A stretch of 64,000 bases of DNA from Sedimenticola sp. Its GTDB lineage: Bacteria > Pseudomonadota > Gammaproteobacteria > Chromatiales > Chromatiaceae. The notes under the pieces were generated by a model, which saw only the letters and a program-made list of their open reading frames with translations, did not search any database and had not been told where the DNA came from. This document shows positions 2,060 to 48,490 of this stretch, in pieces. A program made the position numbers and the translations under genes. Position 1 is the stretch's first letter. Each line of letters starts with the position of its first letter. The stretch covers positions 1-64,000 of the forward strand of contig DRKS01000008.1 in the NCBI GenBank assembly GCA_011051655.1. Reading direction: 5' to 3'.

Positions 2060-2995
2060 ATGACACCGACCCGAAGCAGAACCGCCGGCCGCCGGCTCCT
2101 TCTTGCCTGCCTCCTGGCTGCATTTCCCTTCTCCTCTTTCTCCCAGCCGGGTACTGTCGAATCTGATCCCTCGGTCGTCCGCATTCTGCCGAAGAATTAT
2201 CCTTTGAACCGGATAAGGGTGGCCGCTCATGAGTATCCTTGGAGCGCAATCGGCCTCCTTACCATGCTTGGAGGAAGATACTCCTGTACCGGCACCCTGA
2301 TTGCCGAGCGGTACGTGCTCACCGCCGCGCATTGCGTGTTTCCCGTTCGGAACTTTCCCGAAGAAATCAATTTTCTCGGGGGATACGAACAGGAGCGGTA
2401 TGTTGCGCACTCCAGGGCAAAAAAACTGCATATGAGCAAGGCCTTCAGGAACCCGAGGCCGTCGCCGGAGGTATTCGCCAATGACTGGGCGCTGGTCGAG
2501 CTCGAGAAACCCATCGGAAGGGAAACGGGTTACCTCGGTTGGGCCTATTTCGATGCCGGCGTCCTTGAAAAAATGGGAAGCGGCACGGGTGTTTTCAAAG
2601 TCTCGGGCTACCGCCGTGACCGAAGATTCGTGCAAACCGTGGACCACCAATGCCGCATCACCGGTTTTACCGCGGACGGCAAGTTGATCATGCACCGCTG
2701 TCCGATCACGGGCGGTGACTCAGGCGGGCCGGTCCTCTTGCCTTACAAAAATGAATTGCTTGTGGTAGGCGTCGATGTCGGCGTGAAAGCGCAACGGGGG
2801 CCCCATTTGAAACGGGGCGAAGCACGGGAGGGCTATGCCGTCCCCTCGGCGGCTTTCCGGGACAAGCTGACCGGGCTTGGCATTGGCGGCGCCCCGATGG
2901 GCCCGTCCGGCAATCTCACCGGACGCGCCGGGAATGCCCCGCTCTCGCCACCGAGGCGGCAAAAGCCAAGGCTGACTACTCCATCGAGCCGGTGA
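2060..2995 (+). CDS. Secreted trypsin-like (S1 family) serine protease
   Basis: A 311-residue exported chymotrypsin-fold protease. The N-terminus has an Arg-rich n-region, a hydrophobic core (LLLACLLAAFPF) and a likely cleavage near residue 28. The catalytic triad is intact: His91 in TAAHC, Asp142 in NDWAL and Ser221 in GGDSGGP. A Cys pair around the His loop (SCTGTL and AHC) suggests the usual disulfide. The C-terminal 40 residues are Pro/Gly/Arg-rich and look unstructured. The fold resembles V8/glutamyl-endopeptidase-like trypsins, but the substrate is unknown. The 3' end overlaps the 3' end of the convergent secA-like gene by 20 bp. No strong ribosome binding site precedes the ATG, which was chosen because the signal peptide begins there. 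Confidence 0.87.
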   Translation: MTPTRSRTAGRRLLLACLLAAFPFSSFSQPGTVESDPSVVRILPKNYPLNRIRVAAHEYPWSAIGLLTMLGGRYSCTGTLIAERYVLTAAHCVFPVRNFPEEINFLGGYEQERYVAHSRAKKLHMSKAFRNPRPSPEVFANDWALVELEKPIGRETGYLGWAYFDAGVLEKMGSGTGVFKVSGYRRDRRFVQTVDHQCRITGFTADGKLIMHRCPITGGDSGGPVLLPYKNELLVVGVDVGVKAQRGPHLKRGEAREGYAVPSAAFRDKLTGLGIGGAPMGPSGNLTGRAGNAPLSPPRRQKPRLTTPSSR

Positions 2996-4958
2996 AACCG
3001 AGGGCCTTTTCAAGCTGACAATCCAGCTTCGTTTGTTCCTTGCGGGTTATCGCATGTTCCCGCTCGGCCCTGGATTGCGCGCGGCGGCGCATCCATTCGC
3101 ACAGCATCGGGAGCGGCAGAAGGCCGGCCAGCCGCATGTGCCTGGGGGCGAATCGCCTGAACAACTCGTCATCCAGGGCGACGATGGCCTCGGTGGACCC
3201 CGGGTCGCCCTGGCGCGCAGCGCGGCCGAAGAGTTGCCGGTCGATCCGGCCGCTTTCATGGAACTCCGTCAGGATGACATGAAGCCCGCCTGCCTCCGCG
3301 ACGCCTTCACCCAGCCGGATGTCGGTGCCGCGCCCGGCCATGTTGGTGGCAACGGTGATCGCGCCCGCCTCGCCGGCGCGGGCGATGATTGCCGCTTCGC
3401 CGCTGTCCTGCCTTGCATTCAGCACCGCGTGATCCAAGCCAAGGCGCGACAGCGCCTCCGAGGCCTTCTCGGAGGCCTCGACGGAGCGCGTGCCGATCAG
3501 GACCGGCCGGCCCTTTGCGCGCAAGCGCGCCGCCCGTTTTGCGACCAGTTCCCAACGCTTCTCCGCATTGCGCACATAGGTGTTCCCAAGATGCCGGCGG
3601 CGCACCCGGCGATGAGTGGGAATCCTCACCGTGAGCAGGCCGAAGGTGTCCCGGAATTCCCCGGCAAGCTCCGTCCCCGTGCCCGTCATTCCGGCCAGGC
3701 GCACATAACGGCGGAAGAAGCGTTGATAGGTTATTCGCGCCAGGGTCTCTTTCTGACCGGTTATCTCGACGCCCTCCTTGGCCTCGATCATTTGGTGCAG
3801 GCCGCCCTGCCAGCTCCGGTCGGCCATGACGCGGCCGGTGAACTCATCGACGATCTGGACGGCGCCTTCGACCACGATGTAATCGCGGCCGTTTTCGAAT
3901 AACAGCAGCGCCGACAGCGCCTGGCTGACCAGTTCTTCCCGCGCCTTCCGGATGCGCCAGAGGCCCTGGAGGTTCCCAGCCAGCCGTTCGACCTCTTTCC
4001 TGCCCGTCTCTTCAAGGGTCACGCTCCGGTTCATCCGGTCGACCTTGTAGGAACGGCCCTCTTGCAGGCGGCGGGCCATCCCGAGCGCCTCGGCGTAGAT
4101 TTGTGTGCGCTCCGGGTCGTCGGCCGTCGTCGACAGGATGAGCGGCGTTCGCGCCTCGTCGATGAAAACACTGTCGGCCTCGTCGACGATGGCGAAGGAC
4201 AGGCCCCGCAGCAACAGCTCCCCCGCCGCCGCGCCGCCAAGGTATTCGAATGTTCTGCGGCGCAAGGCGGAGCGCTTCTGGCGCAATGCGATCCGGTCGC
4301 GCAAATAGTCGAACGTGAGATTCTTGTTGGAGATATAGGTCACGTCGCAACCATAGGCCTTGCGCCGCTGCGCGGGATCCATGTCGCTGTCGATTACGCC
4401 GCAGGTGAGGCCGAAGAATTCGAACACCGGGCGATTCTCCCCGGCGTCCCGCCCCGCCAGGTAATCATTGACCGTGACGATATGGACCGGGTTGCCCGAG
4501 AGCGCGGCCACCACGGCCGCCGGCGTTGCGGTCAGGGTCTTTCCCTCCCCCGTGGCCATTTCCACCATTCGCCCGTCGAACAGCGCGAGCGCCCCCATGA
4601 TCTGAACCGGGTAGTGTTGCTTCCCAAGGGTGCGCCGGCTTACTTCCCGGACGATGGCGAAGGCTTCCGTGAGGGCGGCCTGTCCACGCCCGCGGCACAG
4701 GAGTTGGGAACGCAGCCTTTGGGCCGCTTCGCGCAGCCCGGCGTCCGGCATATCCCGGTACCTGCCCTCCATCCGCCCCACCCGCCAGGCAAACCAGCGA
4801 AGGCGCAGCCGGTAGAAGGGAAGAAAGGTGTAAGCGGCGCCGACCAGCCGATCCAGCCAGCGGTCGACCGCATTGTTGACGGGGTCGGCAAGCTCGGCGT
4901 AGGGGGCCACGCCAAGGCGGGGGGCGCCAAAGCCGAGCATCCCCTGCGCCTCAGGCAC
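2976..4958 (-). CDS. SecA-like preprotein translocase ATPase, C-terminally truncated form
   Basis: A 660-residue SecA paralogue carrying the motor core. It has Walker A GEGKT (137-141), DEADSVFIDEARTPLI (259-274), a preprotein-crosslinking-like region (about 275-385), AGMTGTGTE (422-430), NMAGRGTDIRLGEG (539-552) and motif VI RIDRQLFGRAARQGD (571-585). Canonical SecA is about 850-900 residues. This one stops soon after the start of the helical scaffold, so the two-helix finger, helical wing and zinc-binding tail are absent. That argues for a specialised accessory motor, not the housekeeping SecA. It is the last gene of the operon and overlaps the M50-HlyD gene by 8 bp. The start at 4958 is a GTG with GAGG seven bases upstream. 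An ATG at 4940, also with GAGG at good spacing, is an equal alternative. Confidence 0.88.
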   Translation of the reverse strand: MPEAQGMLGFGAPRLGVAPYAELADPVNNAVDRWLDRLVGAAYTFLPFYRLRLRWFAWRVGRMEGRYRDMPDAGLREAAQRLRSQLLCRGRGQAALTEAFAIVREVSRRTLGKQHYPVQIMGALALFDGRMVEMATGEGKTLTATPAAVVAALSGNPVHIVTVNDYLAGRDAGENRPVFEFFGLTCGVIDSDMDPAQRRKAYGCDVTYISNKNLTFDYLRDRIALRQKRSALRRRTFEYLGGAAAGELLLRGLSFAIVDEADSVFIDEARTPLILSTTADDPERTQIYAEALGMARRLQEGRSYKVDRMNRSVTLEETGRKEVERLAGNLQGLWRIRKAREELVSQALSALLLFENGRDYIVVEGAVQIVDEFTGRVMADRSWQGGLHQMIEAKEGVEITGQKETLARITYQRFFRRYVRLAGMTGTGTELAGEFRDTFGLLTVRIPTHRRVRRRHLGNTYVRNAEKRWELVAKRAARLRAKGRPVLIGTRSVEASEKASEALSRLGLDHAVLNARQDSGEAAIIARAGEAGAITVATNMAGRGTDIRLGEGVAEAGGLHVILTEFHESGRIDRQLFGRAARQGDPGSTEAIVALDDELFRRFAPRHMRLAGLLPLPMLCEWMRRRAQSRAEREHAITRKEQTKLDCQLEKALGFTGSME

Positions 4959-7101: not shown

Positions 7102-7107
7102 CGCCGG

Positions 7108-8967
7108 TCAGGGCTGCCAGGTCCAGGCGAATTCCCGCAACCAGTCGATCAGCCTGCGGGACCAGACCCAGACGATCAATTCCTGCCCGGCATCGATCTT
7201 GGCCACGCCCTTCATCCCCGGGCGCACCCCCTCGGGCAACGCCGCAAGGGTCGCCTCGACCCGGAACGTATTGGTGCTGTCATGGATCTCCGAAACAGGC
7301 GTGATGCGGGTGATCACGAAGTCAAGCGGCGCTTCGGGACGGCCGGTGAGGGTAAGCTGCCCCGACTGCCCCTGTTCCACGTACCGCATGTCGCGTTCAT
7401 CGACGAAGATATCGAGCCGGAAGGCATCGAGGGGGGCGACCTCGAACAAGACCTCGCCGGGTTGAACCGGCGCGCCGAGCCGCTGGCTGAGATCGCCGGA
7501 CACGACCAAACCGTCGATGGGGCTCTTGATCCTGGTGCGGGCAAGCTGGGTGTTGGTGAGCGCGAGCTTCGCCTCCGCCTGGGATATCTGCGCCTCGAGA
7601 AAAGCCACCTGCGCACGCTTGTGCTGCGCCTGGGCGTCCCGCAGCTCCGCCTTGAGGCGGTCGCGTTCGGATGTCCAGCGGAGTCTTTCCAGCACCAGAT
7701 CGGCGCTGTCGAGGCGGGCAAGCTCATCTTCGGCGGCCACCACATCCCCGGCGCGGACTGAAGCCGTCTCGATAAATCCGTTGAACGGGGCCACCGCCGC
7801 GCGCACGACGGTTCCACGCACGACGGAGTCGGCGTTGATCCGGAAGGTCCCCTGGACCGTCGCCGCGGCAATGCCGAGACCTGCCAGGAGCAGGGCGAGC
7901 AGCTTCCAGCTCAACCGGCGCGGACCGAGAAGGACGCCGAGGCCGTGCACCAGCGTGTCCCGGATCCGCCCGCCGATCCAGCGCCGGTTCTGGCGCTTGA
8001 GCTCGATCACCGGTCCGGCCAGGGCGGCGACACTCTCGAGGAGCCTGCGCTCTTGTTCGGAAAAGGCCTCCCCGCTGCGGCGCTCCACCGAAATGACCCC
8101 CACCGGGCCGGCCTGGTCGAGCAGCGGAACCGACATGATGGAATTCATCCGGGAACCTGCGACATGGTCCTGGTGGGCGAAGGAAATCACGCGTTCGGTC
8201 GCCGGCATCGGCGGCACCGACACAGTTGCATTCTGGTCGAACGCCTCCTCCATCGCAGTCTCAAGGCGCTCCGCAACCGCCGAGCGTTTCCGAAACCAGG
8301 CCGAATAGGACATGGCCAGCAGCCGGATCCTCGGCGCCGTGTGGCGGCGCTCGATCATGCCGATCGAGATCTGATCCGCCTTCAGGGCCAATTGCAGCTC
8401 GTTCACCATGGCCATGGCCGCCGCCTCGGGACGGCGGTGCTCGCTCATCAACGCGAGGAGATCCAGTGCAACGGCCGCCCGCGACACCTGTCCCGCCTGC
8501 TCGTCGGCAAAACCGGCCCAGACCTTCGCGGCCAGCCAGCCGGCCGCCCAATGCATTTCACGCAGCGCGGCCTGGGTGTCGCCTTTGTTCGGGGAGGCCA
8601 GCTCGACGGCGATGACCCGGGATACCGGCTGGTCATCGATACGGACGGGATAGGCGCAGTAGGCCGGTGCTTCTCCGACAATGGCCGGCCGGCCGCTGCC
8701 CACGACCTTTTCGATAACGTCCTGGAAAACGGTCAGGTCACGCCGGGGATCGGGGGCGATGGCGGCAGGCACGAAGGCCCCCTGGGCCGGGTCCGCCTCC
8801 ATCACGACGCCGAGGGTGGCGCCGGGCAGCTTGGTCAGCAGCAGCGCCAGCCAGCTGGTGAGGAAACCGGCGTCGTCCCTGGCGTTGATGAAAGAGGCCC
8901 ACAGCCCGGAATCCAGCGTGATGGGCTCATCAGAGGCGGCATCGCCCCGCGTCGTCGAGATCGACAT
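7108..8967 (-). CDS. GAF domain / HlyD-like periplasmic adaptor fusion
   Basis: A 619-residue inner-membrane protein. A cytoplasmic N-terminal half holds a GAF-like sensor domain (about 165-320, with SVPLLDQAGPVGVISVERR). One membrane helix (about 352-371) then leads into a periplasmic HlyD/membrane-fusion region: a barrel-sandwich half-motif (about 380-420), a short coiled coil (about 420-480), the second half-motif TRIKSPIDGLVVSGDLSQR, and a C-terminal beta-barrel ending near WSRRLIDWL. HlyD proteins bridge an inner-membrane exporter to an outer-membrane channel; a GAF domain on such an adaptor suggests the assembly senses a cytoplasmic signal. The start is ATG 8967 with AGGGGG just upstream; its initiation region is tandemly duplicated. 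The next gene follows after 6 bp. Confidence 0.87.
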   Translation of the reverse strand: MSISTTRGDAASDEPITLDSGLWASFINARDDAGFLTSWLALLLTKLPGATLGVVMEADPAQGAFVPAAIAPDPRRDLTVFQDVIEKVVGSGRPAIVGEAPAYCAYPVRIDDQPVSRVIAVELASPNKGDTQAALREMHWAAGWLAAKVWAGFADEQAGQVSRAAVALDLLALMSEHRRPEAAAMAMVNELQLALKADQISIGMIERRHTAPRIRLLAMSYSAWFRKRSAVAERLETAMEEAFDQNATVSVPPMPATERVISFAHQDHVAGSRMNSIMSVPLLDQAGPVGVISVERRSGEAFSEQERRLLESVAALAGPVIELKRQNRRWIGGRIRDTLVHGLGVLLGPRRLSWKLLALLLAGLGIAAATVQGTFRINADSVVRGTVVRAAVAPFNGFIETASVRAGDVVAAEDELARLDSADLVLERLRWTSERDRLKAELRDAQAQHKRAQVAFLEAQISQAEAKLALTNTQLARTRIKSPIDGLVVSGDLSQRLGAPVQPGEVLFEVAPLDAFRLDIFVDERDMRYVEQGQSGQLTLTGRPEAPLDFVITRITPVSEIHDSTNTFRVEATLAALPEGVRPGMKGVAKIDAGQELIVWVWSRRLIDWLREFAWTWQP

Positions 8968-9052
8968 TATCCCCCTGAGGCGGCTTCAAGCCCCCCGCTC
9001 TGCGTCGTCGAAATCGGACATTATACCCCTCAAGCGGGCCTCAAGCCCTCCG
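8950..9052. repeat. Tandem duplication of the GAF-HlyD gene initiation region
   Basis: Two near-identical blocks of 48 and 50 bp, 8950-8997 and 9003-9052, lie head to tail. Each contains, on the minus strand, a G-rich Shine-Dalgarno sequence, ATAATGTC, and a GACGACGC stretch. The functional start at 8967 is in the inner block. The outer block holds a second ATG at 9021, exactly 54 bases upstream and in frame, but a TGA at 8986-8988 separates the two. The copies differ at several positions, so the duplication is not brand new. Confidence 0.8.
8986..9021 (-). CDS. Possible 11-codon leader ORF upstream of the GAF-HlyD gene
   Basis: The outer copy of the duplicated start region gives ATG at 9021 preceded by GAGGGG at good spacing, and encodes MSDFDDAERGA before TGA. 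It ends 18 bases before the GAF-HlyD ATG. Translation could affect ribosome loading on the main gene, or it may be a silent relic of the duplication. There is no homology support. Confidence 0.25.
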   Translation of the reverse strand: MSDFDDAERGA

Positions 9053-9057
9053 GCCCT

Positions 9058-9777
9058 TCAAGCGGACCAGGCCCGCCAGCGACGCCTGAGGGTGAAGAGC
9101 GCGCCAAGGCCGGCCAGCATCAGCGCGCCGAAGGCCGGCTCCGGAACCGCGCTGGCGACCTGGATATTGAAGCTTCCGTCCTGCCAAGATCCGCTTTGGA
9201 GACTGTACGTGTAAGGAACAGAATACAGACCGAAGGCAGTCGTGGGAAGGGCTTCGAACGCCAGCTTGATCTTGGCGAAGCCCTGAGTACCACCCGAGTA
9301 GTCTGTCGCCCGGATACCAAAGTACCCATTACTGGCATTGAAGGGATCGTAACTGAATCCCCACGGCCCACTGCTGCCAGCATAAAAAGTCCCAATCAGC
9401 GTAGTGAAATCTGCTCCATTGAATGAAGAAGTTGCCTCAAAATAGGCTCCTGCGTAACGCTGATACGATGCCATGCCTCCGTCGCTGGGGTCATCGTAAA
9501 TGGACAGCAGCCTGAATGCGGCAGGGACATTCAGCAACAGATCGAAGGACCCAGGTCCCGTAATGCCAAAATCGGCCGTGGCCGTCGTGGTACCCCCCGG
9601 TTCGACCGGGGGCGGATCGGAAATAGGCAACGCCTGCACCGGCAGGGAGCCGGCTATCAAAAACATGCCCACAAACGCACAAAACAGGGATCGGAGCATA
9701 ACATCCATCCGGTGGTGGAAATTGCGTTTCAATACGACGCTTGGGGTGGGATCAAACAAGGCTCTGGACGTTTTCAT
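9058..9777 (-). CDS. PEP-CTERM sorting domain protein
   Basis: A 239-residue exported protein. The C-terminus shows the complete PEP-CTERM sorting signal: VPEP at 211-214, a hydrophobic helix (AFGALMLAGLGALFTL) and an Arg cluster (RRRWRA). In this family the signal is recognised by an exosortase, which cleaves near the PEP motif. The body is a beta-rich domain of unknown role. The ATG at 9777 has AGGA nine bases upstream and gives a long n-region before the signal peptide core (LRSLFCAFVGMFLIAG). ATGs at 9708 and 9699 would give a more typical signal peptide. No exosortase gene lies in the window. The gene sits between the DUF3467 and GAF-HlyD genes; the duplicated start region begins 6 bp before its stop. 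Confidence 0.87.
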   Translation of the reverse strand: MKTSRALFDPTPSVVLKRNFHHRMDVMLRSLFCAFVGMFLIAGSLPVQALPISDPPPVEPGGTTTATADFGITGPGSFDLLLNVPAAFRLLSIYDDPSDGGMASYQRYAGAYFEATSSFNGADFTTLIGTFYAGSSGPWGFSYDPFNASNGYFGIRATDYSGGTQGFAKIKLAFEALPTTAFGLYSVPYTYSLQSGSWQDGSFNIQVASAVPEPAFGALMLAGLGALFTLRRRWRAWSA

Positions 9778-46300: not shown

Positions 46301-47240
46301 CGGCCGGCCCGGAAAGGGTCATGCGGATATCGTCGTTCGGCGTCTTGAGCGTATCGAAATACGCAACGGTGTCTTCCGCCACCGAGAAGGTGTAGGTGTC
46401 GCGCTGTCCCGCCTGCGTAAGCCGGCCCGAGACGACGGCATCCAATTCCATCGCCCCGATATTCTCCACCCGCCGCTCAACCGTGAAGGCATAGTCCGAG
46501 TCGGTATTGTTATGGATGCGGCCTTCCAGAAGCAGCGTGTAGACGCCCGTCTTCGGGATATCGATGCGCACCAGGTCGCGGTTGCCGTTCATGGTGTTGG
46601 GACCAAACACCGTGGCGCCATCGGGATCCACGAGCTGCCAGTAAGCCGTACCGCGGCTGAACACCTGGGAGTCGAAAAACAGGGCCGTGCCGGCCTCCGC
46701 CTCGAACTGGAACAGATCGGTCTCGCGGCCGCTCTGCTCCAAGGTGCCGGTGATCCGGGTGCCAGGGTCCACCGGGCTCGCGTTGGCGAGGTTCAGCAAC
46801 CGGAACTTGTAATCGCCGGTCCGCTCGCCGACAGCGTCCACGCGCAGCGTATAAGTGCCTGCCTGAAGTGAAAGGATACCGCCGCCCTGAGCCCCGTCGG
46901 AGGAAGTGAAGGGAGTCGGGGAAACGATCTGACCACCCGGGCCTTCCAGCGCCCAGGTCATCTGGGAATCGTTGGTCAGCGCATCGAACAGAATCTGGCG
47001 CTCTTCCGCCAGTTCAAACTCGTAGTAATCCGTCTCTCCCGGCACCTCGATCGTGCCCGCAACCGGGATGAGATCGGCGGACAAAAGCAGGCGCGGTTCG
47101 AACGTATCGAAATGCAGGCCACGGGACAGGGAGCTGGAATTTGAGGAAGCCGCGGAGCCTTCGCAGGCCCTTATCTGGGCCTCCACGGCCAGCGCCAATC
47201 GGGACTTCGAGAAAGAATAACAGCCATCCCGGACGCTCAT
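10356..47240 (-). CDS. Giant (12,294 aa) LEPR-XLL-type multi-domain surface/secreted protein
   Basis: One uninterrupted frame of 36.9 kb encodes a protein of about 1.3 MDa. No classical signal peptide is seen; residues 47-56 read FEPRLLLSAD, the LEPR-XLL-type N-terminal motif of very large proteins. Order by residue: PPC-like modules in alternating doublets (about 57-3505) with four LamG/lectin-like inserts; 17 CARDB modules (about 3508-5733); a further PPC-like and an IPT/TIG-like module; a propeller (about 6727-6970); nine cadherin/He_PIG modules (about 7190-8052); YD-repeat remnants (about 8443-8502); a dockerin (about 8624-8667); a hydrophobic stretch (9110-9148); a second propeller; a GHSRG hydrolase module; a zincin-like module; then cohesin, dockerin, a Pro/Phe/Gly linker and two cohesin-like modules. 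I noticed only four Cys. GGAGG nine bases before the ATG supports the start. The likely role is adhesion or matrix formation. Confidence 0.95.
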   Translation of the reverse strand: MSVRDGCYSFSKSRLALAVEAQIRACEGSAASSNSSSLSRGLHFDTFEPRLLLSADLIPVAGTIEVPGETDYYEFELAEERQILFDALTNDSQMTWALEGPGGQIVSPTPFTSSDGAQGGGILSLQAGTYTLRVDAVGERTGDYKFRLLNLANASPVDPGTRITGTLEQSGRETDLFQFEAEAGTALFFDSQVFSRGTAYWQLVDPDGATVFGPNTMNGNRDLVRIDIPKTGVYTLLLEGRIHNNTDSDYAFTVERRVENIGAMELDAVVSGRLTQAGQRDTYTFSVAEDTVAYFDTLKTPNDDIRMTLSGPAGAVMSNVEMRYADGQYRNPKLFLVAGDYRLTIGGTSDAKGAYAFQILTDASARSISSGELVTDTLTDRGTHAQDQRDVSDAPMEGDPGGLVRFRQGGAGVYADNGPELNAAAFTLEAWVRPTADRNYDVLAMRTSSSSWTDGFGLYLDGAGNVVFFINQWNDNSQRVLAPLTQGAWSHVAATYEEGSLKLYINGALAAENVITQAIRHADVPLWFGKSNGRYNFRGEMDEVRYWTVARSGAEIAANYDKILQGDESGLLLNYGFDETAGTEMANRVAGGPPAHFGAGPGTETRLLKLSASKGDRLMVDAYNSGNLYTRIFDQYGNEVLSGRDLGDLTPLVIPGDGDYTILIEGYVFESWPRNFSYLVVPESRQELSLTVGEVIDSEISAIGESDAYSFTLAGPARLYFDQLTSRSDITWSLYGPRGTEVSGLRFNQTDSSGTSANRLLDLPAGDYTLVIDGSGLATGRYAFRLFDIATATEIVYDPDAVIDAALSPGNATAAFRFSAARGDQFSLPRVTDNAWVRILDPIGRQIYNNHLSNLGTTTAYLGGEYLVLLEGYPANPPSGDRLVQFKLVKNGETAIADYEGSAYVLGETVNGTISQANEIDDYIFTVTEETDVIFDALSYGGTGTVYWTLNGPAGTLINRRSFYSTDSYDQSGNTHLRLIPGTYQVRIDRYSNQTGDYAFRVLDLSQSTAIDPDASVSGTLLPRAETDLYSFELSEATRLYLEKTADSGRRHDAYYRVFDQYGRQIRARQHLDGGTPMSLAAGSYTLLIEGRIQDSTYSGQYDYTFELRTIHETTAPLVLGDAIEGQLGTPFDSATYSFSITEPKVVVVDSLLDSRYAQLVISGPGGYSDSRNLRSADGPHVSSPPVLYLVPGEYRARVTSNNGTVIPRFAFRLLDVSAAATAIDLDETVTGQLTDPATETDIYQFDGTAGQVVTLTDVSNSGGSYNAYYRLLDPYGNQIIGSTSLQNRDPLTLPRDGTYTLLIEGHVSENPANTTSYSFKLQDPRDPQTRAIGAGELVTGNIDRVGQRHRMTLEVTEAATLYLDSYINGNASHAYYTRVQITGPGGVSRNYRLRDADSHENNGDVTIEVVPGTYDITVYIEGSRTGSYSFAFKDLAAEATAVQLGDRLTGVLEPRNETHVYSFEAEAGDTFLVDVTRVTGSSHGVYWRLIDPRGANELSRQYLQDRDLHTIRRTGTYYLLVEGRTYEGAGQISYDFLLQDKTVEEFAVDLDATDSDAGIEVVEGPAGAADTAPGFSGFERIVVEDRVTQIDGDLSFSLWFRPDRFTAGNWKPLIHKDNASLQYGREYSLWVNSQGFVHFTKSYSSGGQNWINSPHNSVVWEDWNHVTGVIDRTNGQMRLYLNGNLVGTSGISGNPAAIESPWSIAGVGSAGFEGAIRGVVLWDGALTDEDARKVYAGEAVAFGQVIGLPLDEAPASGVITAVADTGPNAVQPVIIDYADTMQGSFTGRLQVPGEVDVYTFTLNEEKLLYWDTLSPRNDIYATLRGPGGVNISRRLEQAGDTNWGGNYVFRAPAGDYTLTFDGASTAKGAYGLRLLDLGTAEPVAIDGSKIEGSIDTYRAAKAFTFTASAGDRAFLDLESLGINANNAAWRLIDPVGRQVYGPVNAGDIDGLTFEFDGRYTLILEGDRQNGTQQDLTYRFALYPIVSPPVPITLGGPNPGGEVPVIDGAIGQALDLRGAEHLKLDNDPAIDLTGSVTLEMWVNPDRFVDTWTPLLIKSAGTGHNQRTYSMWLNSNGSIYADTIRTDGGREALQTGGGQVSARQWTHVAAVFDRANGVQKIYINGVEVASRGMSTTPAASYGDEAPLYIGWTGESASDYAMFNGALDDIRLWSKARTADEIAAAYQSVLAGDEEGLALYLPLDTHAAGAAPDAGPNSLDARLLSFIPNGITGTVSGVGQELRYTFSLAEDTRVYFDSLTNRSDLRLKLTGPNGTYLDRHFAQTDGRGIGNTVPVLYLHAGDYTLLIQGVGDARGDFNLDVVNLADSTPMTLDSVISGELTPANRSRFYSFDATAGTSLFIDDISHNEGMTWRLLDPFGRQVFNYRYSYYQEDITRQTLSYDGTYTFIVEGDVGTGGRSAYSFAFWEREVPDSIPLTLGDVTTVTLPDPGDYRRYSFTLADAARLYMDSLEYRGNLRWALRGPEGYNLADRQFSATDAERYPANPLLELGPGDYQLTIYGTDQITGDFKFRLLDVDAEKSELFFNDETFGVLPEGNHATKVFFLDGVKNQAFSLDVIDRPATYTSWRLIGPSGQQVVSGRRFLDEGGFILPQDGEYLLLLEGNVRDGANTNSYRFILNSPTYPDATGDTLEEFGGGSGIGHVLVNQSGFTPIEEDDGTGNTVLRLLDPLTANTRSGIVFSQTAEGPFDEVRWSFDYRMESPASGTAGHGLVTEWLPSARYGLGGAVPLVDIEANRTGALGIALDLVQSSGDGSVPHISLHHGSKRLEVPLSDFGLTVADLLDTDLNLEVVLSRADGGVNVSVIGSDGATTTTFIDGYFVGGLDLTDGRVAISARSNAEVMGLTIDNVAIDTTAAAAPLTLTLGDEFTGDLLHGSSVDRYRFTVTETTRVVMDPRTNNSRLYWSLTGPTNAGPVRFDTTDANYGSGSTFITLRPGEYQLNIYTNDNSTGSYAFALLDVADATPFDINTPVEGTVDPPKGTQIYSFDWPGGEPFYLQTEYLGGSQDFYYRIVSPSGSTVVERRYFRDDWETGNLSLAGTYYLLIEGRAYNASTGDYRFRAYSGTTSSEALILDTITTGTIAAPLDRHSYTFSLAEDGYIHLDGQTPDYRMRMTLSGPSGTLYSNEMRRSDSYWRGDSTAIWAPAGDYTLTIDPAGLMTGAYSFAVRQLGNATPITPGEQVDATFDPGSTTQIFSFSGNKGEQFYLDRISGNLDGRWKIINQYGSLVTAGNVDVDSDIQLVTLNTDGTFYLLIEGDVNDMDARTQSFRLVPLSGNTSALTLGERVESEIALPGETQTYTFSLTDSAKVYVDVQSPNNGNFRWLLRGPWGKVSTRAFTSSDADSISYPPFFGPLAPGEYSLTVYANSGATGAFSLQVLDYADATPITIGTPVSGQLAPGSETHVYTFEGKAGDRYFFDVVNGNSRTYWRVLDPYGREILERYFSEDQDTTTLQETGTYTVLIEGRRDYPETRAYSFNIYANPITEPIVLAGLDGEPAPDLTVDSFTIDTPAPILSGGAVDVSWVLRNSGNAPVDATFDTRLTIRRVDTGAVLADVVVPTDASGANAIAEDGTVSGSTTLTLPPGVISVGDLRLSLRADVSNDVIERNSDGTGELNNGAELDFVTELAPNSDLVATDLTVTPAAGWLPGQAVTVGWTLTNQGTKDASAPWTERLIVTNTSTGRIVESLDLRETTDPILAGQSVARSVEFGWPGGLDTTGVYRFDVIVDALGEIFETNLAGDAEANNTTRATINSAPDLVVTGVSVAEAAPEAGGALTISWTTRNEGAAPTPGNWFDRVRVRNLTTGQTLHLVEVAVQDMPLAPGEEGTRTVTLNLPDGSAGVGVIRVEVEADRDLGYRSSLIEARDGISASTAENNNSNFTEVTSVARPYPNLVATITGVPGAARGGETTPVSWRVTNAGDRDTLASAWTDRVYLSSDAVLDASDELLAAIEHAGGLARGADYAVTTDVRIPVGIEGDAYLLVSTDEDQVVVEPDTRADNVDAAAISLSSPYSDLTVQAVVGPVSAKTAGETVTVGWRVANEGPDALIAPAGGWTDRVYLSTDGTVAGAVVTLGSYVHQSDLAVGSSYSRSEEIELPPGYVGDFFVVVETNANGAVFEGIGAAPNEGATVTAFRLAPAPAPDLRVDTVSGPDAIVPGLATEVTYTVTNAGEATARAPWRDEVLLTGPGLGGGRRLALVERTFDLDPGESYEVAVQVTIPGNIAENDYQIAVRTDRFSDVFEGGREDNTAADDPVGLRYPNLTVPELSLSDGPFESGDSVRLDWSVENAGAGAVTSGWTDRVWLSQDETLDAGDILLAERPAGAAVPFAAGARVVASLDIDIPIEVSGAWFVLVETDADNTVVEPAGEDDNVAAAPLQIALAPYADLVVTEVVAPSLTVDDPARIEFSWTVANNGTGAGITDTWVDRIFVSADDIIGDSDDIELGRFAHAGGLARGETYSRTESLYMPPGMNGRFTLYVTTDADNAVFENELEANNTLALQGFFDVAPIPYADLVVTNVTAPDTAQSGQPVTLSWTVENRGIGLTSTSRWDDRVYLADNPDGAGRIYMGRFDHIGFIAPNGNYVREAQVTLPEGWEGPAYFFVEVPGANTPTRYNAPYEFVFTDDGNKGVSNEVDVSLSPPPNLIVTSVTAPAEAPEGSAIDVTWTVKNDGTGPAEGSWTDRLYLRNSDTAANERDILIGSYRFNGPLQANTSYTRREQVVLPEQTNNRYDLIVITDYDNKVYEHNNEDDNESSADAQVLVTVLPRPDLQVSGFQAPGELTAGATGSLRWTVINQGPVATTTPNWKDSVYLSLDDKISYDDIRLGSFSNEAALGSGESYLSQEVDFRVPERFRGTAYLLVNTDSGNAVAEWPNENNNLGVHELYIEPIPFADLVVHDVVTPFQAFEGNQVTVNYTVTNRGAGATNLGAWTEQIWLTLDKNRPHPGQGDILLKTLQYNGGILEVGAGYDRQETVTLPDNLVSGNYYITPWVDPYATLLEDTLAVNVNEDDPNEINSNNYKAGGSDLIGQEVIQIIGNPPPVVYPELGIVVDAVTPASTAGVDGQNAYEVSYTLTNNGDGPASGYVVDLYLTETASLNASGLERWHLGRFGGETIPAGGGVASFTRNFVLPPGLDGKYLIAQVSQQGDTDLSNNLDTEATSVASPEPNLVVAEIVPPAGAYSGEKVEISYTVLNDSETAVWPGTEYWIDQIWLSKDPTFIKGRATLLRTEHISNATPLEGGRSYTRTFEATLPPGIEGDYFIYVFTNTGAGLEEQFRRWPEKSGSYDGNIGRHKQYAFEDPAGAMLRADLPVTYAEPDLQVTDLQVPASLSAGQTVDITFEVTNVGNRETREDAWVDRVYLSLDPSLDEGDFLLRREEGQQEIRAEHRRTGALAPGESYTATVTVTLPFEIEGDYRILAVADSDLSDSGYAKSTISPRLRGLGGVANGVVREFQGEGNNTTSQAVTISPYLPPNLQVTSLDASLRAVRGQEFDVDYTVTNIGGNVPFQQAAWDDMVYLSRDEFLDLKADRFIGSIRHTGGLAAGESYDVSRTYSVPTDLPTEAYYVFVVTDPNRYGGKGVVYEGENEADNDRRSDVPMIVELPPPTDIQVSSIELPANARAGEPVTIRWTVTNSSDDVAAEGRWSDSVFLSEDGTWDLTDRPIGRAQYAGSLAPGESYTLELQTTMPASTPGGYRVIVRTDIFNQVFEDVNDANNTTASADVLDVAVDELLLGTPLTVNLGRGKERLYRIEVPPEETLRVTLVSSDPTANNEIFLRHDALPSPNLFDATYEGPLSSDLVAVVPDTEPGVYYLSVRNYSGPPGGTDITLLAELLPLVITSVESDRGGASKWVTTKIKGAQFAENATVKLVRPNIAEFSPVDWKVVDSTEIIAIWDLTDAPKGLYDIQVTNPSGAQAVLPYRYLVERAVEGDVTIGIGGSRVILPGETETYSVALKNLNNLDAPYTFFEVGVPELHLNPYVYGLPFLEFFTNVRGTPDGAAGTPNEDIFWAGLESIVNTNGQLTTKGYLFDLPADGFAGFSFNISTYPGLRELHDEAFDAFRARMASVLPDLDPILEEGGEGAIGDWFDAVVEKATEVSPGLGAALANFPFEDLYNKNAAKPSSCEIPFIPFRFHIFAASTSMTRDEFVAQQTQEALDLRDAILASDDAPGALLALAGDPDTWVELYLAGLEQAGILRDEGDTPPLRERQEILSLMATLASGILFGPAGADIRSDADILGFFEQLRTLYGNDDTLMADIEYWEERRSDCRIGEIPVPALPQFEDYDLGLSNQTNFEAVRIFSPWVPFEDRGAALPEDFLISGAPGPVDGEDFVPLDFSDYFADPANSGRLASLIGPQTFDTEGWLPSRERLPYTIKFENDARATQHANRIEIVTQLDTDLDPRSFELGDIKIGDITIDVPDGRWFYQDEIDFTDTLGFLVRISAGIDLYQDPASARWVIQAIDPLTGEQIQDGSRGLLPPNSEGGKGAGFVAYTVRPAEDVETGTRISSQARVLFDTAAPEETLELIQVVDGAAPVTSLDVSTIEGTDDIEVRWSSEDDAGGSGVRHVTLYVSEDGGDFRIWQRRVESAEGVEIFEGEPGKEYEFLALATDVAGNREEPRDGSTVTSDGSPVNLGAPATVEGTTPPNFGRPPEPTPEPSSNPLFAIAEELVPSADPLSRPSEFDSVLRPFVAQSFATDVPASNGGIAPMALLELSDGDYLVSGGLNRGTLYKFGQQGGSAEDPAALFAALDVPVFNLAEDAGGNLWATTGGGALLKLDAATGGIIARYGKGITMGLAIEEATGLIYVGTNSGIVTFNPATEEFTQWSRDENLRIGSLAFDNYGKLWAVTWPDRTQVVSFNERQRAQIEYTFDSKIDSLAFGRLGTAIEDLIFVSHNTGPISDTGEVAEGSVLTMIDQATRRLVDVARGGTRGDVVITTSDGRVLLSQSNQVDVISPAYAPMVVATNPPSEATVPLPLSVLTVRFDQDMFAGDPTSTASVVNRDNYVLVGEETGEYKPVAVLYDAGSRTALLKIGNLLPDTYTLTVASTVTSAYGLRMGEDYTTTFKGIDDLTAIVDIDFGSTRFNRALGTLSYDVSLTNRSETDIVLPVLMTLDPIRGYAGLPEDVAGRTEQGLWLIDLSDTLPPDGRLAPGESTAGETISIGTPGRQRVLFSTGVLAGATPNQAPRFVSEAPSEAAVGEEFVYAARAEDPDAQTVIYHQLSGPDGMTIDAATGEVMWTPTANAPDSVPVVIQAFDSRGAVGIQRFVLDVKGGNRAPAFISMPTSIRGTEGDLLELEIVASDPDADDVVTWIDDLPQGASYDPDRRILSWNVGYEQAGTYGLTVRASDGLREVAAVVDVLISEGVRPAVLRVPGDQTVTEGDRLRFNLVAEAEPGTPLSFGVFNDSLPFGATLNAATGEFDWTPGYTQAGTYEVMFAVSDGAGVAMDTMNIEVLAANGAPVFDHFDGLRTYEGQQFRLRAFASDPDNPFYEPGYRNGSGEYIEPPDVPKTVQIEVVEGLPDGASFDEDTWELVWTPGPEQAGTYQITFRATDDGAETGVPLTVEETVEIEVLELNLSPTLAPVDNITVSRGEILEVPVAAGDPDGDPLTLLLRNEQPGLPLPDFITFTDNGDGTGVIRLEPGVGDRGEHAVSLIAHDDGGGQGVQRGALYTFVIDVLSDNEPPQFAYQGDVMAVVGETFILELNASDLDADDLTFVLAGLPDGAVLTMDPLIYGRAVLEWTPAAGEVGTYTAEVSATDTGNSGLTAPATTLLQFGVTVRTTNAAPILDPVGEISGKENAQLDVTFGASDADGDKLTFSAANLPRGASFDRETGRLAWKPTPTQGGTYDIDITVSDGNKSSTETVSLTIAEENRDPVFIPMVTQLGRDRAEMRFTVVADDADGDLVALSVVSGLPEGANFNEETGQFQWIPRYDQSGDHVVTFAAQDPFGGSDLLEVTISIANVNRPPELFASDRAFLIGEEKRFTLEASDPDGDEITFEALNLPEGAELDAATGEVTWTPGPGQAGDYYVTFIANDGDQKARQTIIMRASLEPIPPVVRIELTPSFPAVPGQPVLVQVVADSLSDIAGIRLFVDDVETTLDAKGRAVITPDSPGKVGLRATAIDADGYEGEQSLELKVRDPEDRTAPDISLDPGLSYGFLEGRADITGVVADQNLDYWQLDLMEIDSDRVLARVGSGDNPVSGVLGVLDTGRFLNGFYRLRLTAADIGRRLVRTEVVVEINGDEKKGRFTEERIDRTLDLGAVSFELRRRYDSMARPDADFGSWSAGFDLDLALSTPKTGSEEFGIFNPLRVGDRLYLTVPTGERMGFTFQPENEEVGSLTFYQPAWQADNDSGWVLNSVKTLLRKSGGQYFTSEDGLPYNPTDPLVGGQVPFELASPEGVVYVLDSSGEVQEMRVGGERLFVGDSGVTSTTGDVLSFLRDDAGRIIRATTPDGQSTVYTYDDAGRLIGVRDLETGKGARYGYGADGLTVLAEIGGTGWTIEYGSDGAVTKRPITEDLGGLNQFTGRTVAVPGADQTVSYSLTIRESEIFSTASDRLILRIELSSETATPILDNAAPLSLVRFGGRTVALFAIDDPGFFRLDVDAPDNVEMLISAAADLNGDGAVDGVDSGLLTAAGAGTDITGEGMVDGQDRQILNANFGLTRNAVPTVATLLPEVFTHEELPVLVELDEIAEDQDGDQVFFRVVSADNVSASFSADGEFIRIRPEAGFSGVGSLTLVADDGFSATGEITLDVEVSDADLTSMQFLMREFNFENPGEVGELVVVGQFEDQADVVLPFDYVDVISDNPGVVKVSQNGLITAVDDGDTYIQAARGSIAAATAASVGFPTDGLGGIARIFGIDAYPDAVTIVPEGGTRQVVTEVGTIGTRYVKGAEDGVVYVSGNTDIVTVDDDGLIHSVGEGTTNVTVIYRGAEEVIDVTVKPPVIGDEAQIGEEGGALRNADGVEVTFGRGVISGETPTVSINTLSENDLEIPVPPDFDFIGGVAVDVVGGEIDGTFQLAAPVAPGIASEGEEVFFFIQDDFTVQTNGQYGKIWRLVDSGRVGADGVARTASPPFPGLSDRGNYLVARANQPLQDASLYAATLARGMVAVVAGMGIGLAVGGLPGALAGLSIAAGATYAFFKMSPGQQRIDIYQNFLEGRDWSQQRLDVNVVGTNGRINLEASLPDEPYLAAPGEPPGIIDVDVQRTPDGNTQLVISGVNLYRDPATGPGFGTELSDSRVEFRIGDYTEYVPGIDFQVISETPGEQGAVIALDVPNTILATKAQITFQRAPDGMQPGNIGGWAPMPLLPESSVEFSIANTQGYGIVGGSSEDPAHYGDTMVQVFDIAAAGLGGPGGQPDAVVKEIFLDDGGVPLRGWPQQIIMAPDLSAAYVAHRKGIAVVDMLTLKQYDVNPDAPGVNIIKVPGGMVTSLALSNDGRYLYAAGTGKIHMVDLDQSSNQYLSVREIALPIPASAAELTGGKINDIELDADGKKLYVAVPYSGMFGPDGWARGGRTEGKIFVINVDPETAPQGNSGPTNYLQVIGTLNGGKDPFDIEAASGDSSKLVFTARGDYKRGFYTINVLNEDPDAYSAIRTRLPSNTEGSEQLLVMPLQLNKEEIGVRYEPFILPLYLTTIVIDQYVPSSQQRYDLDIRYPAGVALMPDLSYAFVADYDLSRYLTYSDSLIPYYIEALHELGNKVGLIRNPFNMRREEWDQLGKPYEYGAAAHVGSTSPIPDQYLTEIALRPDGTQLLANFRRSGSLTTMNVDNLIIASDREVNGFNLGKNRTKPVDLQRGLFGIGDPIIRQGIYEPGLNIAYWGRGLDIQSETGIELLSPRGKKQVHGDTAESLVFEVQLDPAKVGQTSWKANLFLSTQKPGEGLFDTDPYRERNAWRHSAPTGGPDWHPWRLVNTKREQPWAFESGYRYKLKADGAIERLGELDRGDLTDNDDPKQGVIIEVDPALQRVLTGSQTYYWGIEVQRPGGSAYAAASFETDKVITSPGEFATVQVLTHGFQPFGLLPDFANTALSESNLAAWLDYATILNEGAGGGTILVYNRQTGKFHKYDPNGLQGYRIERSPVNPASLPNDEAVTLVMDWYRESNLSDSGFSEAAADAFFAALVDFNEATQSDKVWNSPIHFVGHSRGTSVNSEIIQRLGARFPAMDMDIQMTTLDPHDFKQQTLNVEAEKILNSWLKAAKFAAVATSFVNPAVGRTAYRVLDAVEQGAQIFMDLGGILGLQLRQIQFGDFKDPNVQVWSNVDFADNYYQTTAEESSAPSWTDIFGLQFTQVTTPNGTPIPTSKDGPGNRPTAAYGIGQPDIELNFTAPPGVPGFIYDDLGAGPHGRITNWYLGTADVNSLYVAGQTIPRTAGDEGLVVGSAKDPSEGNSVLGIFFRRGLDLFNNLFGEKFDKRPWYGVDPVAFSSDFSQVKSYFQQYFQNANVNPVTRGTNNTRNEAVGTGFYFSAVAGDPALRPQPDPTKRTKLDYDNTEVDRPVLPPGSSYEPVPTVFNGDFQAGTRHAMSDYIKWLLESVYTARIQGATSLTELKEKLLGGGGNSPTPTSPKKLSASGVAEAIPNLPPELGRFPLQYDLPGWSMHGGIDGSPDDAQGPVDEGISYTFDLFSGRNIGSWGLDGPMDITGKFLVNQNLAYEFLDVLGRVIKPVIDMLLGKLADKYLSGLYDFATPTDIDNKARKDFADQLQGKLIGTGADQRIEDDNGNILMSASALTDNASAVAQFIIDDKVIITKLAAIIDVALKKVADDPYVKDFLKPYIGDSADITGNAPSLVKILDRQIDNTNADTIAASTKAKADAIKAYTDYIKKNLEAIVVHVFGLDNKPDYGLIFGGTQAIKELFKTFIPEVEFEVGGNNYNLPEMFAEALDGVLNRVGQIDKLTHNRLYVPENMDFVQFDAFLPFNPNPDVQAEAIFTLTDGSRYRAKALVKNDAGIIEERDRFTFDRSFFSTQVAKFKIPDEVKGKVANLTLRNTGLERAPVQGFSDAVVSYFTNFGFIQAVANAVSVVMVIDNVKFTSNGSNQTAASVGSGADTITLDAAKALYEVAKGIWIDSALVPGAQSLLDNVIVSVEDLDGAALGRYENGVITIDPDAAGNGWFVDPTPLDSSEFEATDDEHVFVASAGEAADSIDLLTVLLHESGNAMGLQDLLDPTGNGYVMTPVIDAGMRRLPSGPDVGDFSIDPGATSNGAGGTPVLSNPQAGGTGNAQPAAQVQGVGPAVLSSAAGPFTNGRFNDGLNGWMSTGDVSVVAGEAVLAEERIDMTGLSQTFVVPAGATGLQFVIKELDLNATDGAAPDAFEVALMDPDKLEPVLGIDGLTRTDAFLNIQADGTRRAADGVGIVEQGGGLIVTVPFQGLTLPDALTLSFDLIGLGVVDSSAIVDDVRLLGLTTNTAPIAVDDAAETDEDTPVIVSLLTNDEDPEGDPLVIEILDGPAMGALTALGGGEYEYAPAGDQNGVDAFTYRLFDGEFNSGVATVTIKVNAVNDKPVLDDVDPLAVTAGDLVEVQLVATDVDAAPGELAFELVTGPAGAAVNPLTGAVTWDSTGFAGEQGFTVRVTDGGGLSDETTFSVDVQAPPVFATIDPVTLIEGDPLSILPEVSDPDGDPAQLVFAKVSGPGWISVDPDTGEISGDSTGNIGPAEVIISATDPDGKVGRLTVGLEVVAATASVTVSVAAGPMVAGPGQPLPGGGVPVSVTVGSGVTSIVFGLIDPDGILTAVDAVLGADAPAGASVQVFGGQITVTLPTPPRAGAMDLFNLLATVADDAPYGGLRDIGLQVLQVNGEAPDPLEDPAEFTLLIGYVGDIDGDGALSDDDAAMANVLDVTGNTSLPGWQAGIDGLLIADVNLDGAITGMDASLIGSEFFGFDSPLIPDIPDGITLTFDTAHPEPVQPLPPPPPVFPFGGDPFASTSGFGASSATLSFGNPPPPLSFGAPPAPPAFGSGSFGSSSFVSAPSFSPNLPVAPSGGFGFIHAGRRPGGLSAAHTFELPLLMEAAGGILEIVLEIHRAAPTVLIRDILPGADLPEDAQIRVLREDGNLRVVLTFGKAYDAPVAELLRLAVESSADPVVALQEAGLELRVVSINGGSGREGADAAELDFGAAMAVSLPGPAMEAEQNGDRAELRVDLTLLGAGVEAPGLIDPDLLADGLLPLVMSGIEGVGEIRIGLGFDPDALALAGIAPVAEGVEVDLAQDAEGRATVTVQSAPGASTAGVVLLAALQIRQGRRGRRLGRIGILSLEADGVELMHGAGPDAAAAFKHAAGRESPEAAGAFRIPFTNP
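10360..12195 (-). repeat. C-terminal cohesin-like / dockerin block of the giant protein
   Basis: From N- to C-terminus: a cohesin-like beta module (about 11850-12195); a dockerin with two Ca-binding loops, DIDGDGALSDDD and DVNLDGAITGMD (about 11600-11800); a low-complexity linker rich in Pro, Phe, Gly and Ser with repeated SFG/FG units (about 11275-11540); and two more cohesin-like modules down to the C-terminus. Cohesin-dockerin pairs bind tightly in a calcium-dependent way. Finding both in one chain suggests self-association between molecules. The linker could space the terminal modules. Confidence 0.6.
13680..14045 (-). other. Zincin-like module with degenerate HExxH in the giant protein
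   Basis: Residues about 11065-11187 resemble a matrixin/serralysin-type metalloprotease module: GIWIDSAL and VSVEDLDGAALGRYENGVITID, then LLTVLLHESGNAMGLQDLL and GYVMTP. The active motif should read HELGHxLGL, but here it is HESGNAMGL, so the second zinc His is replaced by Asn. Met in YVMTP fits the Met-turn. The module is probably catalytically dead or altered. Confidence 0.55.
16165..17212 (-). other. Alpha/beta-hydrolase (lipase-like) module in the giant protein
   Basis: Residues about 10010-10359 read like a lipase-type alpha/beta hydrolase. VQVLTHGFQPFG is an HG-type oxyanion motif after the first strand. SPIHFVGHSRGTSVNSEII carries the nucleophile elbow GHSRG (16785-16799, Ser near residue 10150). 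MTTLDPHDF supplies a plausible acid, and GPHGRI a possible catalytic His. This is the only module in the chain that looks enzymatically intact. Lipase or esterase activity is inference. Confidence 0.6.
19795..19911 (-). other. Hydrophobic helical stretch inside the giant protein
   Basis: Residues 9110-9148 form a Gly/Ala-rich hydrophobic segment (MVAVVAGMGIGLAVGGLPGA then LAGLSIAAGATYAFF). It is long enough for a membrane-inserting hairpin and is the only such stretch I noticed in the chain. It lies after the YD-repeat and Ig-like modules and before the second propeller. Confidence 0.6.
21735..21915 (-). repeat. YD-repeat (RHS-like) remnant in the giant protein
   Basis: Residues about 8443-8502 contain RHS-type units: LRDDAGRIIRATTPDGQST, YTYDDAGRLIGVRDLETGKG and YGYGADGLTVL. 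The preceding region (FELRRRYDSMARPDADFGSW) resembles the entry segment of RHS shells. There are too few copies to build a full RHS cocoon. Confidence 0.6.
23085..25672 (-). repeat. Array of nine cadherin-like / He_PIG modules in the giant protein
   Basis: Residues about 7190-8052. Each module of about 90-100 residues opens with an N-x-x-P motif (NQAPRF, NRAPAF, NGAPVF, NLSPTL, NEPPQF, NAAPIL, NRDPVF, NRPPEL, with one opening VRPAVL). Each carries DPDGD-type calcium-binding loops and a GxxxWTP closing strand. Such modules form rigid calcium-stabilised stalks in secreted adhesins. Confidence 0.75.
30040..36715 (-). repeat. Array of 17 CARDB modules in the giant protein
   Basis: Residues about 3508-5733. 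I counted 17 units, each opening with a (P/A/S)(D/N)L-V-type strand and continuing with W-TVTNxG and a W-DRVYLS motif. Most end with an NN or EDDN segment. This is the CARDB (cell-adhesion-related) family of Ig-like folds. Spacing is about 120-140 residues. Sequence divergence between copies shows an old expansion. Confidence 0.8.
36720..47072 (-). repeat. Twelve alternating PPC-like doublets with lectin-like inserts
   Basis: Residues about 57-3506 hold 24 PPC-like beta modules that alternate strictly. Type A closes with GDYTLxI-TGxYAFRLLDLAxATxI. Type B contains W/YRLIDPxGxQ and closes with GTYTLLIEGR and YSF. I counted twelve of each. Concanavalin-fold inserts interrupt the array: a LamG inside the second doublet (about 45480-46040), LamG after doublet six (41980-42525) and after doublet seven (40620-41230), and a lectin-like module after doublet nine (38625-39300). 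Confidence 0.75.
47073..47102 (-). other. LEPR-XLL-type N-terminal motif (FEPRLLLSAD) of the giant protein
   Basis: Residues 47-56 read FEPRLLLSAD, close to the LEPRxLLSAD consensus found near the N-terminus of very large bacterial proteins. It follows a 46-residue Ser/Arg-rich segment without a hydrophobic core and precedes the first beta module directly. It is a candidate export or processing signal; that function is inferred. Confidence 0.75.
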
Positions 47241-47659: not shown

Positions 47660-48490
47660 ATGCGGAAGCCAATACATTTTTTCAGCGCTGTGGCAACGAT
47701 ACTGGCCTGCGGGGCGCAGGCGGCGTATGCAGACTATCCGGATCCGCTGCGTTGCCTCATCGAAGCAAGCGACACCGTTGAGTTGTCGAGCCCTGTCGAG
47801 GGCATAATCGCGGCCATCGAGGTGGAGCGCGGTGATTATGTCAAGGCGGGCCAGACCATTGCGCGGCTGGACACCCTGATCGAGACAATCAGCCTCAAAC
47901 TGGCCAGGCTGCGGGCAAACAACACCGCCGCGATCCGTGCCCGGGAGGCCCGGTTGGAATTCCTTGTATTGCAGGCCGAGCGCAGCACGAAACTCGCCGA
48001 GCGCAAGACCATTTCGGAGGCCAAGCGGGATGAGGCCTTGCAGGAGGCCGAGGTGGCCAGGCAGGAACTTCAGGCGGCCCGGCTGGATCTGGAGATCGCC
48101 AAGCTCGAAGCCAAAAAGGCCGCGGCCCTCCTTGAGCAGAAAGTACTGCGAACCCCGATCAACGGGGTCGTGGTCGAGCGGCTCCTGAGCGCCGGCGAGT
48201 ATCAGGCCGGCGATACAAAGATCGCCACCATTGCCAAGGTTGACGTCCTCCACGTCGAGGCCATTGCGCCGATCGATTATTACAATCGGCTTTCCGTCGG
48301 AGACATCGTGACAATCCGGCCCGAACAGCCCATAGGCGGGGCATACGAGGCCAGAATCACCGTGATCGACCATGTGCTGGATGCGGCAACCGGCACCTTT
48401 GGGTTTCGCATGGAGCTGCCAAACAAAGACAACGTCCTGCCGGCAGGCCTCCGCTGCACCGTAGAGTTCTCACCGCCCCCGGCGAACTGA
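47660..48490 (+). CDS. HlyD-like periplasmic adaptor (membrane fusion) protein
   Basis: A 276-residue exported protein with an N-terminal signal peptide (hydrophobic core FFSAVATILACG, cut near AYA-DYP). Then come the first barrel-sandwich half-motif (SSPVEGIIAAIEVERGDYVKAG, written here as positions 43-64), a long Ala/Glu/Lys-rich coiled coil (about 75-165), and the second half-motif VLRTPINGVVVERLLSAGE. A C-terminal beta-barrel completes the fold. Adaptors of this size link an inner-membrane pump to a TolC-type channel, but neither is encoded in the window. It is transcribed divergently from the giant gene and is probably part of its export system. The ribosome binding site is weak (GAGATAGAG). 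Confidence 0.85.
   Translation: MRKPIHFFSAVATILACGAQAAYADYPDPLRCLIEASDTVELSSPVEGIIAAIEVERGDYVKAGQTIARLDTLIETISLKLARLRANNTAAIRAREARLEFLVLQAERSTKLAERKTISEAKRDEALQEAEVARQELQAARLDLEIAKLEAKKAAALLEQKVLRTPINGVVVERLLSAGEYQAGDTKIATIAKVDVLHVEAIAPIDYYNRLSVGDIVTIRPEQPIGGAYEARITVIDHVLDAATGTFGFRMELPNKDNVLPAGLRCTVEFSPPPAN

Follow-up and report, generated by a model that had tools for sequence, protein, structure and literature searches.

The stretch of DNA analysed here, a 64,000-nt window of a Sedimenticola sp. genome (GCA_011051655.1, contig DRKS01000008.1), encodes a giant protein of the LEPR-XLL class together with a module of genes for a short SecA-like motor (short SecA), a protein joining PqqD, Peptidase_M50 and HlyD adaptor domains (M50-HlyD), a GAF-HlyD protein and a further small HlyD adaptor (small HlyD). 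On the basis of sequence comparison, we read the locus as a probable dedicated, type-I-like exporter that works without an ATP-binding cassette (ABC) transporter, together with its giant surface substrate, and assign this reading a probability of about 0.68. It is carried by the observation that the LEPR-XLL class and the pair of GAF-HlyD and PqqD-M50-HlyD genes co-occur, co-locate and co-evolve.

Joint occurrence of LEPR-XLL giants and the module

The initial annotation of the window had proposed a dedicated export system for the giant protein, and had named in advance, as a check, that the module and LEPR-XLL giants should occur in the same genomes; this check gave a positive outcome. The phylum sample comprised 348 genomes at least 90% complete, in which both LEPR and M50-HlyD were searched for across the whole genome, since counts restricted to 10-kb flanks miss genes of 30-45 kb that start outside them. 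M50-HlyD served as the key to the module; SecA alone is a poor key, because the housekeeping SecA always matches. LEPR was found in 36/348 genomes and M50-HlyD (E<=1e-50) in 73/348, and all 36 LEPR genomes lie within the 73 (hypergeometric P 7e-29). A close M50-HlyD (E<1e-120) is present in 33/348 genomes, 29 of which carry LEPR. In three of the four close-M50 genomes without an LEPR match a giant open reading frame (ORF) adjoins the module: in G264 it is a 2,843-aa neighbour bearing PLEPRLLFSATLD, in G104 and G134 the 3' part of a giant; the fourth, G177, lay outside this check. Half of the LEPR genes in the sample (24/48) are situated no more than 10 kb from the M50-HlyD gene, mostly on the same strand and about 2 kb away, a spacing that equals the length of the GAF-HlyD gene.

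The same association is seen in the other genome sets. LEPR-XLL is found in 41 of the 48 named module-bearing genomes, many of its frames spanning 8,000-15,000 codons, as compared to none of 14 control genomes. Among 55 relatives, seven carry LEPR-XLL and all seven have M50-HlyD at E<1e-100; the relatives with M50 and without LEPR are G001, G005 and G041, with a completeness of 83%, 69% and 75%, respectively. A giant-like ORF on the same strand accompanies 40 of 57 long module loci, as opposed to 2 of 20 arbitrary 20-kb regions, the latter counted on either strand, and adjacency of module and giant extends to distant genera and to paralogous branches. The link between LEPR-XLL giants and the module is about the strongest that genomics can provide.

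Composition and inheritance of the module

The M50-HlyD scan of named genomes and relatives yielded 90 module loci. These were read by clustering all ORFs, because in GC-rich loci a longest-ORF approach masked core genes with shadow ORFs. GAF-HlyD is present in 82 of the loci and SecA in 81, with median spacings of 7 bp between GAF and M50, -8 bp between M50 and SecA, -4 bp between SecA and HlyD and 35 bp between DUF3467 and GAF. The giant gene stands either directly upstream (giant - DUF3467 - GAF - M50 - SecA) or directly downstream (GAF - M50 - SecA - HlyD - LEPR giant). For GAF, M50 and SecA, the distance matrices show correlations of 0.88-0.91, the maximum upon shuffling being 0.18, and the three parts have therefore been inherited together. 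In the M50 tree, the window clusters with one gammaproteobacterial metagenome-assembled genome and with members of the Rhodobacteraceae, Pseudooceanicola batsensis among them, a grouping that points to acquisition of the module by transfer.

The gene set initially proposed is modified by these loci in three respects. DUF3467 keeps its place as a frequent member (26/90 loci), but its start has probably to be moved from the listed position 10441, which lies within the giant gene, to 10324, 31 bp past the giant's stop codon. The PEP-CTERM protein drops out as a general part of the module, with homologues (33-34% identity) at the equivalent place in only two of the 90 loci, L094 and L095, both from Rhodobacteraceae; two exosortases are encoded on other contigs of the genome. 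The small HlyD, described as lone and divergent, is indeed divergent in the window, where it is found on the far side of the giant gene, but it is not ordinarily alone: 56/90 loci have it, and most relatives encode it after SecA in the operon, which is why we consider it the usual fourth operon gene, relocated here.

SapC-family genes (PF07277) were observed in or beside the module in 20/90 loci, at times between M50 and SecA (among them L111 (14229-14972), L114, L121, L122, L123, L127, L234, L235 and L237). In Campylobacter fetus, SapC is encoded alongside an S-layer type I exporter.

Anatomy of the short SecA and of M50-HlyD

The short SecA is the second SecA of its genome, beside a 939-aa housekeeping SecA. 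Alignment of the two, using domain boundaries from general SecA knowledge, shows that the short form retains nucleotide-binding domain (NBD) 1, the preprotein clamp (PPXD) and NBD2 and breaks off early in the scaffold helix. It thereby lacks most of the scaffold, along with the helical wing, the two-helix finger and the C-terminal tail. Its AlphaFold2 model (predicted local distance difference test score, pLDDT, 84.9) gives its best TM-scores with SecY-engaged SecA (6itc, TMq 0.83; 5eul, 0.81) and also resembles the truncated E. coli SecA-N68 (5k9t). Walker A and DExD motifs are present in all 74 short SecA homologues, the C-terminal zinc motif in none of them. A strongly diverged SecA-like protein of 621 aa (26% identity, weakened SecA_DEAD match) is encoded in the module of G104 (L185:3946-5811).

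In M50-HlyD, HExxH and the NPL..FD motif are strictly conserved (86/86 homologues). The AlphaFold2 model (pLDDT 84.8, predicted TM-score 0.61) features a winged-helix-like unit at the N-terminus, 6-7 predicted membrane helices surrounding HExxH and, as in MexA and MacA, a barrel-sandwich that carries a short hairpin. The closest curated model for the PqqD-M50 part is the daptide biosynthesis intramembrane metalloprotease (NF041824), matched over 359/379 positions at E 1e-41 and scoring 143 bits against an equivalog cut-off of 300; by analogy, this likeness suggests that the PqqD-M50 part may bind and cleave a leader. With M50-HlyD, GAF-HlyD and small HlyD, the locus encodes three HlyD-bearing proteins, and TolC-like outer membrane efflux proteins (OEP) are encoded on other contigs of the genome. 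No ABC exporter was found among the window proteins scanned.

The giant protein and its leader

Pfam scans of the giant in three overlapping pieces detect Laminin_G_3, CARDB, He_PIG, Big_9 and cadherin-like repeats, and the protein contains 4 cysteines in 12,294 aa. The LEPR-XLL family (NF012209) is known as a motif of very long proteins. Its model, a 24-position motif with a cut-off of 17 bits, matches residues 42-64 of the giant with 30.1 bits in the protein scan and 37.5 bits (E 7.8e-9) in the genome search. The leaders collected show the consensus [L/M/F/I]EPRx[L/M][L/F][S/A/N]AD in the main branch of the module and LEPRx[L/M][F/L]DGA in a distant branch, in both cases preceded by a basic stretch.

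GGxGxD (RTX nonapeptide) repeats are absent from all 12,294 residues, and no RTX model matched in the Pfam scans. As the scan of the window proteins also revealed no ABC exporter, we rejected classical type I export on the features tested. Autotransport and two-partner secretion (TPS) were dropped as well, as the Pfam scans of the three pieces contain neither a C-terminal barrel nor a TPS domain.

Modules without SecA and the length of the giant

Not all modules include the motor. In G007, G011, G023, G264 and G377, GAF-HlyD, M50-HlyD, small HlyD and a giant are encoded, and the stretch read contains no SecA gene. SecA is likewise missing from the stretches read in a distant branch of M50-HlyD proteins (E 1e-74 to 1e-105). 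There, GAF-HlyD is shorter or an HlyD protein takes its place, a small HlyD is often present, the operon includes an OEP/TolC gene where tested, and the giants bear the variant leader ALEPRMLFDGAAV. Giants accompanied by SecA measure 4,161-14,920 aa (15 genomes), those without SecA 1,765-4,504 aa (7 genomes). The SecA-like motor thus occurs where the chain is very long. In one SecA-less module (L072:10709-13612), a hybrid histidine kinase with PAS, HisKA, HATPase, receiver and Hpt domains directly follows the LEPR gene and is a possible regulator.

Proposed export route and alternative explanations

The membrane route and the energy coupling we infer as follows. At the inner membrane, the LEPR-XLL leader would dock on the PqqD-like winged helix of M50-HlyD and would be trimmed by the M50 site. 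The three HlyD proteins may bridge the periplasm as a conduit that leads to a TolC-type channel encoded at another locus, and the short SecA, having kept motor and preprotein clamp and lost the SecY-engaging parts, could hydrolyse ATP to thread the unfolded chain into the conduit. In branches with short substrates, where the motor is absent, another energy source would have to suffice. The initial annotation had already suggested recognition by PqqD, cleavage by M50 and pushing by SecA; this putative route fits all of the anatomy described above. A more specific proposal, which we put forward tentatively and at somewhat less than even odds, is that a SecY-independent SecA docks on M50-HlyD and drives LEPR-XLL chains, the longest of about 15,000 residues, out of the cytoplasm and onto the surface in a single step, so that SecA would replace the type I ABC transporter and set the manageable length.

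Several findings weigh against reading the locus as a dedicated exporter of this kind. The 6-7 predicted membrane helices of M50-HlyD do not constitute a known protein channel, and this locus itself contains no OEP gene. The PqqD match is marginal (24.5 bits at a cut-off of 23.4; 29/38 homologues at E 0.01), and Pfam did not find PqqD in the one distant-branch M50 tested. Seven of the 48 named module genomes lack an LEPR match. SecA is missing in several branches and therefore cannot be universally required, and the difference in giant length with and without SecA (Mann-Whitney p 2.3e-5) is not corrected for phylogeny.

A different role for the motor is conceivable, in which the short SecA acts as an accessory SecA2 on SecYEG, Sec brings the giant into the periplasm, and the HlyD proteins aid the outer-membrane step only. 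The short SecA is, after all, a true SecA with motor and clamp intact, its best structural match is the SecY-engaged enzyme, and NCBIfam SecA2 models do match it. Their scores of 404-526 bits, however, are far below the cut-offs of 725-1100, and the parts missing from the short SecA, including the zinc motif absent throughout its homologues, also argue against engagement of SecYEG. Furthermore, the first 120 residues of the giant contain no Sec-like hydrophobic stretch (maximum Kyte-Doolittle hydropathy 1.46, compared to 1.8-2.3 for three presumably exported neighbours), and modules without SecA serve the same class of leader. We therefore regard the SecYEG route as unlikely.

Slightly less probable still is that the module controls the giant rather than transporting it. 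LapA-type adhesins are retained and released by periplasmic proteolysis; in a comparable device, GAF would sense, M50 would cut an anchor to retain or release the giant, and an ABC type I exporter encoded elsewhere would carry out transport. Domains of the GAF and M50 types commonly take part in sensing and intramembrane proteolysis, and the invariant M50 catalytic site is in line with such a role. Yet the three HlyD adaptors plus the OEP gene of the distant-branch operon amount to a whole conduit, the giant lacks RTX repeats, and no LssB-type type I ABC transporter scored over cut-off in the genome, HlyB- and PrtD-type exporters not having been searched by model. A mere neighbourhood coincidence of two widespread gene sets would agree with the finding that some giant genes of the phylum sample are on contigs other than the module's, but in view of M50-HlyD being present in every LEPR genome and of the adjacency recurring in distant genera and paralogous branches we consider it extremely improbable; chance adjacency is refuted by the co-occurrence counts. 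The dedicated exporter hence remains the reading we prefer.

Layout of the locus in the window

ORF analysis together with Pfam and NCBIfam scans, the source of the domain calls used throughout, confirmed the genes as initially annotated in order, strand and spacing, with a gap of 6 bp between GAF-HlyD and M50-HlyD, an 8-bp overlap of M50-HlyD with SecA and a divergent small HlyD gene (Table 1).

Table 1. Features of the export locus and its giant gene; coordinates refer to the 64,000-nt window.
Feature	Position	Strand	Evidence
Short SecA-like motor, 660 aa	2976..4958	-	SecA_DEAD + SecA_PP_bind + P-loop_SecA (Pfam/NCBIfam); alignment to the 939-aa SecA of the genome; AlphaFold2 model, PDB match
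PqqD + Peptidase_M50 + HlyD adaptor (HlyD_3), HExxH...NPLLKFD, 716 aa	4951..7101	-	Pfam, NCBIfam, AlphaFold2 model
GAF + HlyD adaptor, 619 aa	7108..8967	-	Pfam
PEP-CTERM protein, between DUF3467 and GAF-HlyD	9058..9777	-	Pfam/NCBIfam
DUF3467 (PF11950), ~110 aa	9992..10324	-	Pfam, E 2e-17; start re-read
Giant LEPR-XLL protein, 12,294 aa	10356..47240	-	ORF, Pfam, NF012209
LEPR-XLL leader motif (FEPRLLLSADL) of the giant	47049..47117	-	NF012209
Small HlyD adaptor, 276 aa	47660..48490	+	Pfam; divergent from the giant gene

The region between the PEP-CTERM and GAF-HlyD genes contains two copies of a 54-bp direct repeat (8949-9052). Convergent with the SecA gene is a gene for a trypsin-like protease (2060-2995), the 3' ends of the two overlapping by 20 bp; in the nearest relative (L093), a homologue with 54% identity adjoins the module. 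Near the small HlyD gene, a Peptidase_S8 subtilase gene and one for a PpiC/SurA-like peptidyl-prolyl isomerase overlap by 4 bp (55620-58132, + strand) and possibly represent an envelope protease-chaperone pair.

Relation to known systems and significance

The initial annotation knew of no described system with exactly this set of genes. This has to be revised, as the locus, its substrate excepted, was described by Kamneva, Poudel and Ward (2015; PMC4452313). They reported a secondary SecA_DEAD protein without the wing-scaffold domain, GAF-HlyD, Peptidase_M50-HlyD and an HlyD/biotin_lipoyl protein in one locus that contains no ABC transporter and was spread by transfer, and proposed a function related to type I secretion, with SecA as the ATPase and M50 as a possible membrane part; the broader biological role they called "completely unknown". 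The text of that paper makes no mention of "LEPR", "giant" or "adhesin". The window shares with their locus the second SecA without wing-scaffold, the adjacent GAF-HlyD and M50-HlyD genes and an HlyD protein, and differs in that its small HlyD is divergent and located beyond the giant gene. Their description does not include DUF3467, the leader of the LEPR-XLL class, the branches that lack SecA or the relation of the motor to chain length. In the open literature, with subscription papers and preprints outside the search, we found no paper joining PqqD, M50 and HlyD or the module with giant genes, and no later one that names a substrate. A link to the giants of Chlorobium chlorochromatii had been suspected; in the paper on its symbiosis, neither SecA nor HlyD nor type I secretion comes up. 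The machine has thus been known since 2015, and the link to its substrate appears to be unreported in the open literature searched.

With type I systems (HlyB-HlyD-TolC, or LapBCE for giant adhesins) the locus has in common the HlyD adaptors, a putative TolC-type partner and a very long repeat protein nearly free of cysteine. Unlike those systems, it has no ABC transporter among the window proteins scanned, adds GAF-HlyD, M50-HlyD and SecA, and has a presumed substrate with a leader motif at the N-terminus, where those systems use an RTX/secretion signal at the C-terminus. Accessory Sec likewise links a second SecA (SecA2) to special, large surface substrates, whereas here the short SecA lacks the SecY-engaging parts and the crossing of the envelope would be HlyD-based. 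The architecture of PqqD plus M50 is that of leader proteases with PqqD or RiPP recognition element (RRE) domains from ribosomal peptide pathways, such as the daptide M50 (NF041824), from which M50-HlyD differs in scoring below the equivalog cut-off, in carrying an HlyD adaptor and in probably serving giant proteins. With M50 site-2 proteases it shares the transmembrane HExxH and a distal NPxxxFD motif, again in 86/86 homologues. Among LEPR-XLL proteins, the giant of the window has the motif over cut-off, and the family is here tied to a probable exporter.

Bacterial proteins of 4,000-15,000 residues have no obvious exporter, and a whole class of them, LEPR-XLL, is now tied to one conserved machine. 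The findings also suggest that a SecA may be able to work without SecY, and the reading proposed here predicts that the SecA motor would be needed for the longest chains.

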